A program made the position numbers and the translations under genes. The notes beneath the pieces are model-generated. The model worked only from the letters and a program-made list of their open reading frames with translations, was not told the origin of the DNA and did not search any database. Below, one piece after another: positions 4,619 to 16,231 of a stretch of 48,952 bases of DNA (position 1 is its first letter; each line of letters opens with the position of its first letter). Source of the stretch: Halorubrum yunnanense (lineage in GTDB: Archaea > Halobacteriota > Halobacteria > Halobacteriales > Haloferacaceae). Location of the stretch: the NCBI RefSeq assembly GCF_026586675.1, contig NZ_JAODIX010000006.1, positions 1-48,952 of the forward strand. The letters are read 5' to 3'.

Positions 4619-5207
4619 GCCGTGTCGGATAGCGACTTCTTTCTGATCGAACGGGTGGTCGTCGGTCTCGCCTCCGCGCTGGACAGTGTCCCTGTACTCA
4701 CACAGTCGGGGCTTTTTTGATCTGATCTTGTTCTTCTTATCAGCCGTATCTATACCCCTCTAACCGGCCCCCGTACGCGGGTTTGTCGTGATATCCCCTA
4801 TCTCTTGATGGACTTCATCTAACTGGGGATCTAACTCTCTGACTAGTCGATTATCTTTCGAGAGTAGATCGGAAAGTGGTCAATAAGCCCGCTACACTGC
4901 TGTGAGCATGGGTAGTAGCCAACCTCATGTGTCTCCTTCAGAGAGATTTCTGCTTGTTCTCCCCGTAAACCTCTGGGTTGATGGCTTCGTCACAACCCGG
5001 TCCGGTGAGTGGGATTGTTATCTCGTATTCAATCGGCCACAGATAGTGTGAAGCACCCCATCATTGAGATTTAGCCTACTATCTGCATATCCGTGGATAT
5101 CCCGTATTTTGAGATCGGTCCAGCCGATCTGTTTGTATCCCTCGCTAGGAGTGAGAGGGCGAAAGAGAGGGGAAGCAAAGCCTCCCGTTCGTCCGCTCAG
5201 TGCAATT
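4619..5207. other. Gene-poor AT-rich stretch
   Basis: No supported gene is visible on either strand. A run of six T at 4713-4718 could act as a T-rich archaeal terminator for plus-strand transcription. Short open frames here lack the acidic composition and strong third-position GC bias of the neighbouring genes. Confidence 0.45.
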
Positions 5208-5375
5208 ATGAGTTGGAACACCCAGCAAGTCACGCCTCAAATCGACAGCGAGCCCTCTGTATCGTTTCGCTTGTCGATTCCGGGCGTGCCATGGACACCT
5301 GAATCGACATCAACCAACGCGACCGGTACCGTGTGGAGCTCAGATCTGAACGGCTCACTATCTCGATCACGATGA
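5208..5375 (+). CDS. Possible 55-residue leader or remnant protein overlapping the HNH gene
   Basis: The frame starts MSWNTQQVTPQIDSE at the ATG 5208 and stops at 5373-5375. Its TGA overlaps the HNH start in an ATGA arrangement, which is typical of translational coupling. The sequence is rich in Ser and Thr with no domain I recognise. It may be a real small gene, a truncated remnant of a longer gene, or chance. Confidence 0.35.
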   Translation: MSWNTQQVTPQIDSEPSVSFRLSIPGVPWTPESTSTNATGTVWSSDLNGSLSRSR

Positions 5376-6043
5376 CAGACGAATTCCGACAAGCAGTGTA
5401 TGATGCATGGGGTCGTGAGTGCTTGATCTGCGGGCGGTCGCCGGAAGGTTGGCTCCAAGCGGCTGTCGGCGGTGGGCACCAGGACAAACTCTCGTTACAC
5501 CACCTCAACGGCGACGATACAGACGATCGAGTCGCGAACGCCATCCCGCTGTGTCAGAGTTGTCATGTCCACATCCACCGGGTAGACGAGCCGCCGTACC
5601 GGCAGTGGCACCGCCAGCTCCCAATCGCGGATCGGCATGCGTGGAACGCCCACCGGGAAGAATACGCCGAGACACCACAGCTAACGGCAAAAGAAGCTTC
5701 GTGGCGGTACGGAGACGACGACGGCACCCCGCGGAGTACGTCGTATCTCCGGTACGAACGAGACGTCACTGACTCCGATGACGGGTTCAATACGGAGGCA
5801 ATCTGGAGTGACGGCGGCCACCGTGAACAGCCAGCAGATATCCAGGAAGCCACCATCGAGTACACACTCGAAGACTCCGGACGCTACCGAATACGGTTCG
5901 TTGAACGTCACGACGGCCCCGGGTGGTGGCGTGTCGTCGATAAATGGACCGACAGTGTCTGGCACCCCGTCGACCGTAAACCGATCGCTGATGTCGACGT
6001 CATCCTCGAGTACGGCGCTAACGATGGCAAGCGATCGAACTGA
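5372..6043 (+). CDS. HNH endonuclease domain protein
   Basis: The protein has 223 residues from ATG 5372. A start at 5333 is possible but would add 13 residues before MTDEFRQAVYD. The N-terminal half carries a zinc-finger-type HNH core: CLIC near residues 18-21, then LSLHHLNGDD about 25 residues later, then NAIPLCQSCHVHIH. The paired cysteines bind Zn and the His/Asn residues form the beta-beta-alpha-metal active site that nicks or cuts DNA. The C-terminal half is a beta-rich region without a known motif. The gene is isolated, with an AbrB-like gene converging from the right. HNH proteins of this kind occur in haloviruses, plasmids and defence islands; the target here is unknown. Confidence 0.85.
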   Translation: MTDEFRQAVYDAWGRECLICGRSPEGWLQAAVGGGHQDKLSLHHLNGDDTDDRVANAIPLCQSCHVHIHRVDEPPYRQWHRQLPIADRHAWNAHREEYAETPQLTAKEASWRYGDDDGTPRSTSYLRYERDVTDSDDGFNTEAIWSDGGHREQPADIQEATIEYTLEDSGRYRIRFVERHDGPGWWRVVDKWTDSVWHPVDRKPIADVDVILEYGANDGKRSN

Positions 6044-6058
6044 ACAGTAGGATAGTCA

Positions 6059-6328
6059 TCAGTTGGTCTCCGAGAAGACGGGATCGTCCTCGTGACCTGC
6101 GAGGTCATGGGTTTCAGACCCACCGCCCTCCATCGAGACTGGATCGAAGTCGTCGAACGCGCCGTACCGCTGCTTGACGATTTCCACAGAGAGGTTCCCT
6201 TTTTCATCAGCGTTCCACCGGAGTTTGTCGCCCGGCTCGATGTCGAGCCGTCGACGGAGGTCCGCTGGGATCGTGACCATCCCTCGATCGCTGACCTTGG
6301 TTTCTGTGGGAGTTTCTTCAGTTGCCAT
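6059..6328 (-). CDS. AbrB/SpoVT-type transition-state regulator
   Basis: The protein has 89 residues from the ATG at 6328. The longer frame upstream has atypical composition and overlaps the decayed nucleotidyltransferase, so it is not used. Residues 10-45 contain the swapped-hairpin AbrB signature: TKVSDRGMVTIPADLRRRL followed by IEPGDKLRW. The C-terminal half is acidic and low in complexity. Such proteins bind DNA as dimers and act either as stand-alone regulators or as antitoxins. No PIN or other toxin gene follows in the same direction, so a regulator role is more likely. A TATA-like sequence lies about 30 bases before the start codon on the minus strand. Confidence 0.85.
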   Translation of the reverse strand: MATEETPTETKVSDRGMVTIPADLRRRLDIEPGDKLRWNADEKGNLSVEIVKQRYGAFDDFDPVSMEGGGSETHDLAGHEDDPVFSETN

Positions 6329-6405
6329 ACTCAGCGGTATACGTTCACGCACAATACATATTGCGCCGCATGTGGATGTTTGGAGAACGGTCAGACCTCG
6401 CTCCC

Positions 6406-6578
6406 ATGCAAGCAGTCGTCCTCGCCGCGAGCAAGAGTACGCGCCTCCAGCCCTCACGGAAGACAAGCCGAGGGTGCTCGTCGAAGGTATCGGAACGTCC
6501 CTGATAGAGGATATCTTCGAGAGCCTGATCGACTCGGAAGCCACCGAACTCATCGTCGTCGGCTACGAGGTCGAGTAG
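6406..6578 (+). pseudogene. Decayed N-terminal fragment of a sugar-1-phosphate nucleotidyltransferase
   Basis: From the ATG at 6406 one frame reads MQAVVLAASKSTRLQP, the degenerate nucleotide-binding loop of RfbA/GlmU-type enzymes (normally MQAVVLAAGxGTRLRP). After a frame change around 6450 the next frame continues ALTEDKPRVLVE, then GTSLIEDIFESLI and ATELIVVGYEVE before a stop at 6576. That order matches the usual LTxxxPKxLVxVxGKPLLEHxL...LxxxGxxEIxVVxGY of this family. The GxGTR loop has lost glycines and everything after about 57 residues is gone. It is therefore a frameshifted, truncated remnant and not a working gene. Confidence 0.75.
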
Positions 6579-6592
6579 AGTATGGAACTTAC

Positions 6593-6632
6593 AAGGCTAA
6601 AACCCCGCCTTCAGGGCGGAGAGGATGCCAAT
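6593..6632 (+). mobile_element. Minimal TTAC-anchored hairpin element (IS200/IS605 end relic)
   Basis: A target-like TTAC at 6589-6592 is followed by about 40 bases: AAGGCTAAAA, a hairpin CCCCGCC-TTCA-GGGCGG, then AGAGGATGCCAAT. The hairpin followed by GGATGYCAA is the same right-end signature seen in the larger element at 47579-48072. No transposase is present. It is most likely a solo end or an internally deleted derivative. Confidence 0.6.
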
Positions 6633-6884
6633 TCGTCTGTTTCCGTGTTAGTAACCGAGAGTCGGAGCATGTCGGGCAGACACCCCTCATTTCGTCTGTT
6701 CTCGCAGTAGAGCGATGGGCGCTCCATGGGTAGCTATCGACCACACCCCTCATTTCGTCTGTTCTGTATCACATAGTTCGGGTACTGATCCTCCCGCCGG
6801 CTGCAACGAGAAAACAGACGAAACATAGTAAACAGACGAACGTTACTTTTAAGTTAGTAAGTAGTGTTACTCAAAATATCAACG
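6632..6884. other. Replication-origin region upstream of orc1: two full ORBs, three half boxes and an AT-rich tract
   Basis: Two identical 22-bp boxes, CACCCCTCATTTCGTCTGTTCT, lie at 6681-6702 and 6744-6765. Shorter cores are present at 6632-6642 (TTCGTCTGTTT) and inverted at 6813-6822 and 6831-6840 (AACAGACGAA). Between the boxes and the orc1 start lies the most AT-rich part (6840-6884), a suitable unwinding site. The same 22-bp box recurs inverted beyond the gene. Archaeal Orc1/Cdc6 proteins bind such origin recognition boxes, which in haloarchaea include a G-rich stretch (here GAGGGGTG on the minus strand). A TTTTAAG box A at about 6845-6851 probably drives orc1. Confidence 0.8.
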
Positions 6885-8081
6885 ATGTCTAAAGATCTCT
6901 TTGCGGAGATGACTGAGACGCTCTTTGAGGACAAAGCCATTCTCTCGGAGGAGTATCGTCCGGACGTTATCGTCGAACGAGACGACGAAATCGATGCGTA
7001 TCGATCGGCGCTCAAAGACGTACTTTTCGGCCGGAATCCCGCGAACGTGTTTATTTATGGAAAAACTGGTGTCGGAAAGACGGCCGTCACGGAGTACATG
7101 ATGAACGCTCTCCAGACGGAAGTACAACGACGGGACGAAGCCGAAGAACTCCACGTTCATTTCCGGAACTGTAACGACGACAGCGTCTACAGAACGGTTC
7201 GATCGCTCATAAATAGCATCCGTGAGGACGACGGAGAGACGTTTCCGGAAACCGGCCTCTCGACATCGCATGCCCTCGAAACGTTATACGAAGAAATGGA
7301 GACACGTGGCGGTACATTTCTGTTCATTCTTGACGAAATCGACCACCTTTCTGACCCTGATACACTACTGTACGAGCTCCCGCGCGCCCGAGCAAACGGT
7401 CATCTTGACGCTTCCCGAGTCGGCGTGATCGGGATCAGCAACAACTACACGTTCCGTTCGTCACTGAGCCCGAAAGTCAAAGACACGCTGATGGAGAAGG
7501 AACTGGCCTTTTCGCCGTACGACGCAGATGAACTCCAGTCGATTCTCACCGCTAGAGCTGAGAAGGCACTTGTTGATGGAGCATGTGAAGACTCCGCTAT
7601 TAAGCTCGCAGCCGCGAAGGCCGCGAAAGATACCGGAAGCGCACGGCAGGCGATTGACCTCCTCCGCGAGGGCGGCGATGTCGCCGAAGAACAGGGAGCG
7701 ACGGCGATCACCGACGACCATATCGAGGTAGCTGCCGCACGCGTTCAGCGAGGTCGTGTCCAAGACAAGCTGCGCGACCAGACCATGCACGGGCAGCTCA
7801 TCTTAGAGTCGCTCGCACGGATCGAAGTGAATGGGGATGTTCCTGCACGGTCAAAAGAAATTCAGGCGGCGTACGAACGCGTCGCACGAAACTGGGGTCA
7901 CGATCCACTAACCACGTTAAAAAGTATCCAGAACCATCTCGCGGATCTCACGATGCTCGGGTTTCTCGAACGGACCGAACAGAACGAGGGACGCGCAGGT
8001 GGTGTTCACTACCGATACGAACTCGCGTTGGATCCCGACATTATCTTGGAGACGCGCGAGTCGATCGAGAATCAGCCGTAG
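6885..8081 (+). CDS. orc1: Orc1/Cdc6 family replication initiator
   Basis: The protein has 398 residues from ATG 6885 (MSKDLFAEMTETLFEDKAIL). It is an AAA+ ATPase: Walker A GKTGVGKTAVTE near residues 60-71, Walker B FLFILDEIDHL, sensor-1 region GVIGISNN, an arginine-containing helical lid (TGSARQAIDLL), and a C-terminal winged-helix domain of about 100 residues (SLARIEVNGDVPARSKEIQ onward). It would bind the flanking ORB repeats and load the MCM helicase. Length and architecture fit intact haloarchaeal Orc proteins. Its setting in accessory DNA, with its own set of inverted boxes on both sides, suggests the origin of a plasmid or integrated element and not the main chromosomal oriC. Confidence 0.95.
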   Translation: MSKDLFAEMTETLFEDKAILSEEYRPDVIVERDDEIDAYRSALKDVLFGRNPANVFIYGKTGVGKTAVTEYMMNALQTEVQRRDEAEELHVHFRNCNDDSVYRTVRSLINSIREDDGETFPETGLSTSHALETLYEEMETRGGTFLFILDEIDHLSDPDTLLYELPRARANGHLDASRVGVIGISNNYTFRSSLSPKVKDTLMEKELAFSPYDADELQSILTARAEKALVDGACEDSAIKLAAAKAAKDTGSARQAIDLLREGGDVAEEQGATAITDDHIEVAAARVQRGRVQDKLRDQTMHGQLILESLARIEVNGDVPARSKEIQAAYERVARNWGHDPLTTLKSIQNHLADLTMLGFLERTEQNEGRAGGVHYRYELALDPDIILETRESIENQP

Positions 8082-8095
8082 CCGTTTAAAACTGA

Positions 8096-8441
8096 AGAAC
8101 AGACGAAACGAGGGGTGTGGTTCGAGTGAGACGGAGCCACCACTCACTGTAGAGACCAGAACAGACGAAATGAGGGGTGTCCGAGACCTCGAGACCGCTG
8201 TCGATCGGCGGTGGAGTGTCGTATTCTTTGAAAATAAAGTACTCTCTCACTCTTGGGTGACACGTTGTCCAAAGCCGAGAAACACTCCACCTTTGCAAGT
8301 GAAGTCAATTCTTCGGGCCCACTCGTCCCAGTTTCACCTGCGAAACTGGTGTGTGTCTAGCTTGTTCTTCCCATGCTGACCGAATTCGATCGAAGCATAT
8401 CACACGAGTTCTATACGGGAGAACAGACGAAATGAGGGGTG
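8096..8441. other. Right-hand ORB cluster downstream of orc1 (three inverted boxes)
   Basis: Copies of the same 22-bp box in inverted orientation lie at 8096-8117 (one mismatch, AAACG for AAATG), 8158-8179 and 8420-8441. Together with the two upstream copies they form an inverted array around orc1. The stretch 8180-8419 between the last two boxes holds no gene that I can support and contains an AT-rich segment (TTTGAAAATAAAGTA at about 8227). Confidence 0.8.
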
Positions 8442-8510: not shown

Positions 8511-9101
8511 ATGAACGACCGACGCCCACCAGAGGAGTTTACAGATGTTAATGAGGCGGTCGGAGCGGAATGGGAGTCCGAAACGACGCCCTACGAGCGC
8601 ATTCGACACGTCATTAGACGTAGGTACAGCCCGGTGTCAGCTGATGCGGTCGCTGACGATGCACGGACCGCTCCGAAGACCGCCCGAAAACACCTGAACA
8701 CACTCGCGGACGAGGGATTCGTCGAGACGACACCCGGCGAGCACGGCAGCACGCTCTATCGTCGCTCACCCGAATCACTCGTCGTCCAACAGGCTGCCGA
8801 TATCCTTGCGCATGTCTCGACTGATGAACTGGCCACACGTATCCAGGAGATGCGCGAGCAGCTCACCGAGTATCAGGCTGAGTTCGATGTCGATTCCCCT
8901 GAGGAGTTAGCCGTCAACCAAACGAACCAGGCTCTCGCCGAGTCTGGGTCGCAACCGGACGAGGTTGATCCAGAGCGGATTCGTGAGTGGAAGACGCTCC
9001 GTCGGAATCTCGCATTCGCGAACGCTGCCCTCTCGATCGGCAACGCCGAGCAGTTCGTCGACGGTGACCGTCGTTCGACTGACGAGAACGTCCCGGCCTG
9101 A
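8511..9101 (+). CDS. Winged-helix regulator of a wHTH/TumE-like pair, copy 1
   Basis: The protein has 196 residues from ATG 8511. Residues 25-80 form a winged helix: TPYERIRHVIRRRYSPVSAD, then PKTARKHLNTLADEGFVET and a wing around PGEHGSTLYRRS. The C-terminal half is helical (SVVQQ...RIQEMREQLTEYQ). The gene ends three bases before the next one, which is on the same strand, so the two are almost certainly co-transcribed. The same gene pair recurs at 13343-14319, where the helix reads PKTARKYLRWFADLGIV. In haloarchaea proteins of this type stand next to TumE-like genes. An antitoxin role is plausible but unproven. Confidence 0.78.
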   Translation: MNDRRPPEEFTDVNEAVGAEWESETTPYERIRHVIRRRYSPVSADAVADDARTAPKTARKHLNTLADEGFVETTPGEHGSTLYRRSPESLVVQQAADILAHVSTDELATRIQEMREQLTEYQAEFDVDSPEELAVNQTNQALAESGSQPDEVDPERIREWKTLRRNLAFANAALSIGNAEQFVDGDRRSTDENVPA

Positions 9102-9104
9102 GCG

Positions 9105-9587
9105 ATGGAAGGCCCTCCAGATCAAGCGGAATCCCATACGCTTCGCGGAGCGACGGATCGGCCGGCACTCCTAACGATTCGCGACGTTGTAGAGGAAATG
9201 GAGCCGCTTGCGACAGCCGAACTCGATAACTACCTCCATCCGTCTGTCCTCGAAGTTGTGCTTGACGACGGGCTCTGTGCGGCCGAGGAGGCTCGGATTG
9301 ACATCCAGTGGACGACACGGGCTGACTACAAATTTCACTACACGGACACGGAAGGCGTGAATTTCCGGTGGGGAAAGCATCCACATGCTGGAGACTACAT
9401 CGACGTCAGTGGGCTCGAACACTATCACCCGCCGCCGACTGCGAGCTCAGATCCAGACGAGGTCGAAGAGTCCCGTATCAGACAATCTCTCGAAGCGTTG
9501 GTCACTCGCGCAGTCCTCAAACTCTGGCGGGTCGCCTACCACACGGATTCGTATGCGCCGCTCAATGCTGGCCGCAACCCACCGTGA
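9105..9587 (+). CDS. TumE-like putative toxin, copy 1
   Basis: The protein has 160 residues from ATG 9105, three bases after the winged-helix gene. The conserved part is an aromatic and His-rich core: DIQWTTRADYKFHY, then FRWGKHPHAG, then HYHPPPTAS. The parallel gene at 13885 shares the pattern W-T-x2-D-(Y/F)-K-x2-Y ... RW-x2-HP ... H-x-HPPP-x-AS. This resembles DUF6516/TumE, described as the toxin of a two-gene system with a helix-turn-helix partner. That assignment is from memory and moderate. The mechanism is unknown. The C-terminus (LKLWRVAYHTDSYAP onward) differs from the second copy and may be extended by read-through into unrelated DNA. Confidence 0.65.
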   Translation: MEGPPDQAESHTLRGATDRPALLTIRDVVEEMEPLATAELDNYLHPSVLEVVLDDGLCAAEEARIDIQWTTRADYKFHYTDTEGVNFRWGKHPHAGDYIDVSGLEHYHPPPTASSDPDEVEESRIRQSLEALVTRAVLKLWRVAYHTDSYAPLNAGRNPP

Positions 9588-13342: not shown

Positions 13343-13876
13343 ATGTCCGACATAGCGTCCACGGACGGTCCCCCCGCTTTCGATGATCCGTTTAGCGGGG
13401 ACGACGTCGAACAGCGTATCTACGGAACTATCCTCCAGATCCGGGACCCAACAACGGCAAGCGCTATCGCCGAGCAGGTAGAGTGTGACCCCAAAACTGC
13501 CCGAAAATACCTCCGCTGGTTCGCGGATCTCGGCATCGTCACACGCCATAACGGTCATCCGACCACCTATGAACGCAACGACGCGTACTTCCAGTGGCGA
13601 CGCATCAACCAGCTCGCCGCAGACCACTCCGTCGAAGAACTACAGGCGCACGTCCGCGAGTTGACGACACGAATTTCGGACTACGAGGACGCGTACGACG
13701 CCGCAACACCGGCTGCGGTTGACGCCGTGGCCATGGCTGAGGCGAGTGACGAACGGACGATCGACGCCGTGTACAGTGACTTCGCCGACTGGGCAACCGC
13801 ACGGGAAGCACGTGGGCGCTACGAACGTGCTCGCCAACAACGTGCCAGTGCCGACGGCGAACAAGCCTCCGGGTAG
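13343..13876 (+). CDS. Winged-helix regulator of a wHTH/TumE-like pair, copy 2
   Basis: The protein has 177 residues from ATG 13343. The winged helix covers about residues 22-75: DVEQRIYGTILQIRDPTTAS, then PKTARKYLRWFADLGIVTR and a wing HNGHPTTYERND. The rest is helical (EELQAHVRELTTRISDYEDAY). It shares the PKTARK-(H/Y)-L ... AD-x-G-(F/I)-V signature with the gene at 8511 but is clearly diverged elsewhere. It is followed eight bases later by the TumE-like partner. It is expected to bind its own promoter and, if this is a toxin-antitoxin pair, to counter the partner. Confidence 0.78.
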   Translation: MSDIASTDGPPAFDDPFSGDDVEQRIYGTILQIRDPTTASAIAEQVECDPKTARKYLRWFADLGIVTRHNGHPTTYERNDAYFQWRRINQLAADHSVEELQAHVRELTTRISDYEDAYDAATPAAVDAVAMAEASDERTIDAVYSDFADWATAREARGRYERARQQRASADGEQASG

Positions 13877-13884
13877 CTCGCTCG

Positions 13885-14319
13885 ATGGTACCGCCAACAG
13901 GCGATGGGGGGAGCCCTGCCCCCATCGATCGCCCGATCCTTGAGTTCCTCCAGACGCGTCTCCGGGCGACAGAACAAGTCGAACAGGCGACTATCACGAA
14001 CGGCAGTGGCCACCTCGAACTGCAGGTCTCACTCGCACTGCGATACTATCCAGCGACCGTCAGCGAGGCGATTTTGACTGTTCGCTGGTACACGAATGAC
14101 GACTTCAAAATTCAGTATCGTGAAATACATCCTGAGAACGCCTGGGAGTGCCGGTGGGACCGTCACCCGAATTCCCACAACACACGAACTCACTTCCATC
14201 CCCCGCCCGATGCTTCGACGCCCGGAAACGATGCCTCCTGGCCGACCGACTATCGCGACGTGATCTCGCTTGTCCTCGATGAGATTGAAGAACGGATCGC
14301 GGCTCTCTGGAATAAATGA
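13885..14319 (+). CDS. TumE-like putative toxin, copy 2
   Basis: The protein has 144 residues. The ATG at 13885 is eight bases after the winged-helix gene. The core reads TVRWYTNDDFKIQYRE, then WECRWDRHPNSHNTR, then HFHPPPDAST, and the protein ends with a helix EIEERIAALWNK. This is closer to what I remember of haloarchaeal DUF6516/TumE proteins than copy 1 is, and appears full length. Residues conserved between both copies (R-W, H-P and H-x-HPPP) are candidates for an active or metal-binding site. An IS5-type element has inserted six bases beyond the stop codon without damaging the gene. Confidence 0.7.
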   Translation: MVPPTGDGGSPAPIDRPILEFLQTRLRATEQVEQATITNGSGHLELQVSLALRYYPATVSEAILTVRWYTNDDFKIQYREIHPENAWECRWDRHPNSHNTRTHFHPPPDASTPGNDASWPTDYRDVISLVLDEIEERIAALWNK

Positions 14320-15406: not shown

Positions 15407-16231
15407 ATGGACGTGACAGAGGACGGGGTCCAAGACATCTGCACGAACGCGGTCTTCGAGCGCGGCGAGAGCTACCTCTCCGAGAACCGTATCCGCGAGA
15501 TCCACCGCGTCGACAGCATCGTAAGCGCTGTCGTGAGCGGCAGTCGCCAGTACGACGTTCACGTCGACCTCGCGGCCGACGGGTTCGACCCGTGGTGCGA
15601 TTGTCCGTACGACGGACCGGGAGCGTGCAAGCACGTCGTCGCCGTGCTGCTTCAGTGTCTCGACGAGGTCCCGGCGGACGAAGGCGACCGGCTCGACGCC
15701 GCACTCAACGCCGCCGACGCGGACGATCTACGAGCGTTCCTGCGCGACACGCTGGCGACCGACGCCGCCCTCCGCGAGCAGTTTTTCGCCCGGTTCGGCG
15801 AATCCTCGACGCGCTCTGTCGACGAGCTACGCGCCGCCATCGACCGGCGGTTCGAGGAGACGAACCCGGAGTACTACGTCGTCTTCGAGCCGATCGACTT
15901 TTCGGAGTGGTTCGACCTCGCGACCGAGTACCGCGAGCAGGGTCGGAACGCGTCGGCCGCCGCGGTCTACCGGGCACTCGCCGAGTCGCTCGACGACAAC
16001 ATGGAGCGCGTCGACGGCGCGTACGACAACTTCTCACAGGCGTTCACGCGAGCGCTCGACGGATACGTTGACTGCGCCGCGGCCGCAGACCATCAGGCCG
16101 ACGGAGCCACAGACGCTGTCGACTTCCTTGAAGAACGGGTGGAGTCGGGAACGCCGTATCTCGCCGGCCAGTTCGAGCGGGCAGCGTCCGAACTGCAAGA
16201 GGAACTGACAACAGGATCGGATGGTGAGTGA
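15407..16231 (+). CDS. SWIM zinc-finger domain protein
   Basis: The protein has 274 residues from ATG 15407. Residues about 60-75 contain the SWIM signature C-x-C-x(7)-C-x-H (CDCPYDGPGACKHVV), a zinc-binding module linked to DNA or protein contacts. The C-terminal part is acidic and helical, with tetratricopeptide-like character (WFDLATEYREQGRNASAAA). It starts about 130 bases after the insertion sequence and is followed by the VapB-like gene. SWIM proteins of this length are common in haloarchaea. No enzymatic domain is visible, so the role is unknown. Confidence 0.85.
   Translation: MDVTEDGVQDICTNAVFERGESYLSENRIREIHRVDSIVSAVVSGSRQYDVHVDLAADGFDPWCDCPYDGPGACKHVVAVLLQCLDEVPADEGDRLDAALNAADADDLRAFLRDTLATDAALREQFFARFGESSTRSVDELRAAIDRRFEETNPEYYVVFEPIDFSEWFDLATEYREQGRNASAAAVYRALAESLDDNMERVDGAYDNFSQAFTRALDGYVDCAAAADHQADGATDAVDFLEERVESGTPYLAGQFERAASELQEELTTGSDGE

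Follow-up and report, generated by a model that had tools for sequence, protein, structure and literature searches.

The region around the orc1 gene of Halorubrum yunnanense is probably a chromosomal replication origin specific to the Orc1 protein that it encodes, a reading which rests on sequence and takes in the proposals on titration, promoter control and the initiator-specific motif (ISM) made below. The locus appears to be a well-supported candidate origin of known architecture and a chromosomal origin candidate for the genus. The question at stake is how several Orc1 initiators in one cell distinguish their origins. The DNA analysed (the window) is a draft contig of 48,952 bases.

Origin boxes and the initiator gene

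Five exact copies of the 20-mer AACAGACGAAAYGAGGGGTG surround orc1, two upstream on the − strand and three downstream on the + strand, and in all five the core faces the gene while the G-string points away from it. A de novo repeat search recovered the box units (arm complementarity 96-100%) and confirmed the positions and strands given in a preliminary description, which had placed boxes around orc1 at 6681, 6744, 8096, 8158 and 8420, the last three inverted. The window holds 5 copies of the 20-mer where 0.01 would be expected, and none of 100 dinucleotide-shuffled sequences reached 5. When the search was extended to the whole genome (3.17 Mb), as the same description had proposed, exact copies again numbered 5, every one at the orc1 locus; one further site, at C63:24698, has 3 mismatches to the box, and a reversed control pattern had 0 matches in the 3.17 Mb. 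The elements of the locus are:

6632 to 6641, − strand: what is left of a third upstream box, namely its core, joined at boundary 6631/6632 to the end of a dispersed repeat in place of the G-string half
6681 to 6700, − strand: full box, upstream 2 (de novo unit 6680-6702; 20-mer match)
6744 to 6763, − strand: full box, upstream 1 (de novo unit 6743-6765), 122 bp before the ATG
6813 to 6822, + strand: solo core (mini-box), first of a pair spaced 18 bp (core match)
6831 to 6840, + strand: solo core (mini-box), 6 nt before the TATA-like box
6847 to 6853, + strand: TATA-like box TTTTAAG, putative promoter element of orc1, 38 bp before the ATG and within AT-rich 6820-6879
6885 to 8081, + strand: orc1/cdc6 initiator gene, 398 aa; ISM loop PETGLS at residues 121-126
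8098 to 8117, + strand: full box, downstream 1 (de novo unit starts at 8096; 20-mer match)
8160 to 8179, + strand: full box, downstream 2 (de novo unit starts at 8158; 20-mer match)
8422 to 8441, + strand: full box, downstream 3 (de novo unit starts at 8420; 20-mer match)

The window has 8 exact occurrences of the core AACAGACGAA, five within the boxes and three alone, at 6632 (−), 6813 (+) and 6831 (+). Exact matches thus agree with the earlier count of three lone cores, two of them before orc1 in an AT-rich tract. This tract (AT 0.70-0.75 across 6820-6879) lies between upstream box 1 and orc1 and contains the solo cores, and is not flanked by two close full boxes. Inverted G-string repeats, an orc/cdc6 gene and an AT-rich tract, which together mark haloarchaeal origins of the ORB type, are all found here, and the origin-like architecture first described, with inverted boxes on both sides of an initiator gene, stands.

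The lone cores had been described as half boxes. This holds for 6813 and 6831, but the core at 6632 is a truncated third upstream box rather than an independent half box. Its offset from the ATG (244) is that of the third upstream box in G017 (244), Hrr. lipolyticum L071 (243) and G038 (243), and directly to its left, in window 6585-6631, a dispersed repeat ends with a GC hairpin. The genome carries 8 other partial copies of the repeat, and in 6 of them the shared part stops at GGATGTCAA, beyond which the flanks diverge. From the conserved offset and the adjoining repeat end we infer that the third box lost its G-string half to the repeat, which, by the likeness of its hairpin, may have an IS200/IS605-type end.

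Alignment of orthologs makes ATG 6885 the most likely start of the gene, as against GTG 6864 in the mechanical ORF. The product has the features of an archaeal Orc1/Cdc6 initiator, namely an AAA+ ATPase with conserved Walker A (GKTGVGKT) and Walker B (DE) motifs, a lid and a C-terminal winged helix (TIGR02928, E 7e-127; Cdc6_lid; Cdc6_C). Its AlphaFold model (mean pLDDT 89.6) has the fold of DNA-bound Sulfolobus solfataricus Orc1-1 (2qby, TM 0.83) and Aeropyrum pernix ORC1 (2v1u, TM 0.84), and their ISM, PFTGLS, resembles PETGLS here; identity to these structures is 30%.

Conservation, chromosomal setting and alternative readings

Of 51 other genomes in the genus (Halorubrum in GTDB's sense, from named relatives), 13 carry an ortholog of orc1 (79-96% identity), and in all 13 inverted exact boxes flank both sides, at least 2 upstream and 1-4 downstream. 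Together with its uniqueness in the genome, this upholds the proposal that the box is specific to this initiator. Box offsets and strands are largely conserved, the first upstream box lying 117-190 bp ahead of the ATG in the set with named loci; orientation differs for two of the downstream boxes of Natronocalculus (L070), which are on the − strand, and for an additional upstream box of G038, on the + strand, and at L069 one upstream flank is masked. In Halorubrum sp. JWXQ-INN 858 (L039:962-3402) the downstream boxes begin ~630-700 bp after the gene, compared with the usual ~20-140 bp. No ortholog of at least 79% identity was found in 38 of the 52 same-genus genomes; the 14 with one, its own included, set the locus apart from oriC1, which is present in all haloarchaea.

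There is some chance, though we tend to doubt it, that the origin is a dormant or backup one, intact and plasmid-competent but silent in the wild type as other chromosomal origins fire first. Haloferax mediterranei offers documented cases of dormant origins whose inverted ORBs are intact (PMC4595724), the present genome holds at least 7 further Orc-like loci (identity 26-38%), the locus sits in variable, low-GC DNA, and one upstream box has already been lost to a repeat. However, the upstream side keeps 2-4 exact boxes across species whose Orc1 identity is 79-96%, which suggests selection for use. Across ±200 kb, the GC skew at two chromosomal orthologs pointed in opposite ways, and it was dropped as a sign of origin activity.

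The locus had also been described as accessory DNA whose origin would help to find the limits of a former plasmid. The first part agrees with its low-GC, variable surroundings: GC is 52-62% around orc1 and left of ~19 kb in the window and 67-75% to the right, and sharing upstream beyond ~250 bp is confined to Atlit-26R and Hrr. ezzemoulense (5073-8246). On the other hand, the same orc1 lies on 2.7-Mb chromosomal contigs of relatives (G017 and G038), and in several species a block corresponding to window ~15.3-34 kb is likewise found downstream of orc1. Matches to 16.3-34 kb are piecewise, on the G017 and G038 chromosomes and at the loci of Hrr. halophilum and Hrr. salipaludis, and always on the downstream side of orc1, at distances from ~2 to ~31 kb. 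In Hrr. ezzemoulense, Hrr. salsamenti and Atlit-26R, orc1 is followed by the SWIM-domain gene (15407-16231 in the window); the match of this gene in G038 lies ~1 kb from orc1 on the opposite side. The right flank is syntenic with the 2.7-Mb contigs, and because of this synteny, which alone assigns the replicon of the draft contig, we place the locus on the chromosome, not on an extrachromosomal replicon or at a plasmid boundary. The candidate origin is, on this reading of the sequence, a chromosomal fixture within a variable island, and its use for delimiting a former plasmid finds no support. Origins in variable islands have been described for other haloarchaea (PMC4441112).

If the locus were what is left of an integrated plasmid or another mobile element, the limits of that element could be mapped from it; this would fit the GC step at ~19 kb, the transposase, PIN-domain and MazE-like genes nearby, and the occurrence of related Orcs on plasmids, the best of which in PLSDB is 63.5% identical and has a different box. 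Orthologs on 2.7-Mb contigs that share a downstream chromosomal block in the same orientation make such a remnant improbable, as do viral contigs lacking exact boxes, and chromosomal synteny led us to reject it as the main reading, although the locus may have an ancient plasmid ancestry. A viral source of the box was likewise rejected, as viral contigs gave 0 exact matches and a single Orc relative, at 39% identity. The window also contains two similar gene pairs (8511-9584 and 13343-14319), in each of which a small partner comes after a DUF7342 winged-helix protein; the partner in the first pair is TumE-like (E 4e-4), and the pairs are possibly toxin-antitoxin modules.

The solo cores at 6813 and 6831 stand immediately ahead of the TATA-like box. 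Among 86 Orc loci surveyed across several families, a TATA-like box stood at a suitable distance in 79. It is directly adjoined by a core (no more than 2 mismatches) in 50 of these 79, compared with 29% of shuffles; 46 of the 50 have a gap of 6-8 nt, and 29 of the 79 are without a close core. Several orthologs have promoter cores arranged as 9-bp tandem repeats. The position of the core overlaps the region that TFB is expected to contact, which makes self-repression the simplest reading, and the promoter cores probably autoregulate orc1; alternatively, they may help melting. A conserved promoter-side element of this kind suggests autoregulation akin to that of dnaA.

Saccharolobus islandicus Orc1-2 is a non-initiator regulator, and four winged-helix (wH) arginines are reported to contact ORBs in initiators (PMC9738581). 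In the window Orc1 the A. pernix contact positions R345, R346, R367 and R369 are K, S, E and R (numbering matched to that source by our own alignment with 2v1u), so that one Arg and one basic residue are left of the four, in comparison with an initiator set in which we saw no haloarchaeal Orc. That Orc1 is mainly a transcription regulator of the Orc1-2 kind, with the boxes as operators, nevertheless seems very unlikely despite the three arginines not kept and the cores abutting the promoter, since the boxes extend 340 bp beyond the end of orc1 and, with all exact genome boxes at one locus, no regulon is visible.

Covariation of the ISM loop with one half of the box

A de novo repeat search beside 58 listed relatives showed that Orc1s at 56-63% identity have the same left core, (A/G)ACANACGAAA and close variants, joined to a different right half, GTACTCTCTC or GTACTGTSTC (CTCTC-type); other repeats were picked up instead at L080, L086, L097 and L105, and at L060 in the set with G-strings (G-type). 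More distant Orc1s (43-52%) mostly have G-strings. The change is paralleled in the protein, where the ISM pair at 122-123 reads ET in every G-type row (16 of 16) and [KR][RK] in every CTCTC-type row (35 of 35). The two residues come immediately before the invariant ISM glycine and beside the GL pair; mutation of the GL pair in Orc1-2 abolished its specific binding (PMC9738581); S. solfataricus Orc1-1 and A. pernix ORC1 have FTG at this position.

Columns that separate the 16 G-type from the 35 CTCTC-type rows number 28, and 8 of them fall within the 37 ISM columns (hypergeometric P 0.002, ancestry ignored). This share is inflated by the greater variability of the ISM compared with the remainder of the protein, and 4 of the 7 columns without any shared residue lie outside it. 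A tree built without the ISM columns recovers three clades: that of the window Orc1, with 16 rows (support 96/94), a large one of CTCTC type (98/94) and a further CTCTC-type one from Halocatena (100/100). The branching order among the three is weak; with the G-type and Halocatena clades as sisters (92/72), nesting of the G-type clade inside a CTCTC family was rejected, and the swap may have gone by loss and regain of the G-string or by two independent losses.

For a wider test, 195 Orc loci were reduced to 102 by 95% deduplication and to 86 with at least 3 box copies and an orientable core. The G fraction in the 12 nt right of the core has a median of 0.52 in loci with Thr before the glycine (39 loci) and 0.11 in those with Lys/Arg (46), L101 and L132 being mis-oriented in these values. 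With the class cut at a G fraction of 0.3, chosen after the values were known, with L101 and L132 assigned by hand and with L008 and L010 left out, residue and box agree in 83 of the 84 loci counted for both traits, across Orc families: Thr goes with G-rich boxes and Lys/Arg with CTCTC. The single misfit is L122 (NRG, AACGGTGT). A basic residue with an intermediate GGTGT box is seen at L122 and L183 (NRG) and at L181 (GKG), the last removed by deduplication. Each trait changes three times on the tree, and a pairs test with 2-3 pairs is below the reach of significance; with so few changes, the agreement is a strong correlation drawn from few independent events.

These data suggest that one short protein loop decides which box half is read. 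The fuller proposal, a two-part code in which the winged helix would read the left core and the ISM pair (x-T-G or K/R-R/K-G) would pick the G-string or GTACTCTCTC, seems to us evenly balanced between true and false.

Several loci depart from the common pattern. The CTCTC-type loci L044 (3014), L045 (2778) and L108 (~144 bp downstream of orc1) each carry a single hybrid box, GACAGACGAAAYGAGGTGTGTCTC, with a G-rich right half. Halocatena marina L072 and L019 have about ten boxes at exact 56-bp spacing, up to ~1 kb upstream of orc1, like plasmid iterons. In Halorubrum aquaticum (L096:8833-11176, the same locus as L043) a G-type orc1 is reduced to C-terminal residues 216-395 (77% identical) and retains its two downstream boxes, with an intact CTCTC-type orc1 starting ~0.5 kb off in the opposite direction; here one origin was apparently replaced by another. 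Intact genes of both types stand 7 kb apart on one chromosome in G017 (L028 and L055, C2:1077250-1086702) and on separate contigs in G019.

Proposed mechanism and comparison with known systems

In the origin reading that we favour, the winged helix of Orc1 would lie on the AACAGACGAAA core and the ISM on GAGGGGTG at each box, and the residue before the invariant ISM glycine (Thr123 here) would be matched to the right half, as its covariation suggests, Thr with the G-string and Lys/Arg with CTCTC. The origin proper would consist of the upstream boxes and the AT-rich promoter tract, the tandem cores next to the TATA box would let Orc1 repress its own promoter and/or aid melting, and the downstream boxes probably titrate Orc1 and so damp firing, by analogy with oriC2D of Haloarcula hispanica. 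Action at its own origin and damping by downstream ORBs are carried over from H. hispanica by architecture: cognate ORBs lie downstream of the initiator gene, 3 exact ones here and between 1 and 4 in each of the 13 orthologs. In haloarchaea every Cdc6 serves the origin next to it, and mutation of the G-string, which is read by the AAA+ domain, abolishes the activity of H. hispanica oriC1 (PMC3936714); in A. pernix the ISM contacts the G-track (PMC9738581).

Published surveys of haloarchaeal origins selected ORBs only when the repeat carries a G-string (PMC4595724), and ORB-like elements with a G-string were reported beside 102 of 154 orc genes (PMC3528665). With such a requirement CTCTC origins would be missed, and if CTCTC boxes are real ORBs, haloarchaeal origin counts are too low because of it; haloarchaea would then have a large origin class without any G-string. 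In the text of the haloarchaeal Orc/ORB papers compared, we found no description of the window orc1 family, and a literature search with the box and variant DNA strings gave, by title, no match on archaea.

The families of Wu et al. (2012; PMC3528665) likewise tie family-specific G-string ORBs to specific Orcs and include two-sided cases, three of them in Halorubrum lacusprofundi, a species absent among the 78 best loci related to the window Orc1; these families were compared by their text, the ORB sequences standing in figures and supplements. In layout, a close parallel is H. hispanica oriC2-cdc6E with oriC2D, where ORBs also lie on both sides of a chromosomal orc/cdc6 gene (PMC3936714). There, 11 downstream ORBs, against 3 at the window orc1, were shown by experiment to lower firing, probably by titration, a negative control that we only infer for the present locus. 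The CTCTC-type loci (Halobacterium salinarum L107, Natrinema hispanicum L099 and Halocatena marina L072 among them) share the left core and the promoter cores, have two-sided boxes in most cases, and differ in the right half and in the ISM, which reads [KR][RK]G instead of ETG. One changed box half and a two-residue change in a loop would amount to a natural half-site swap that can be tested directly by exchange.
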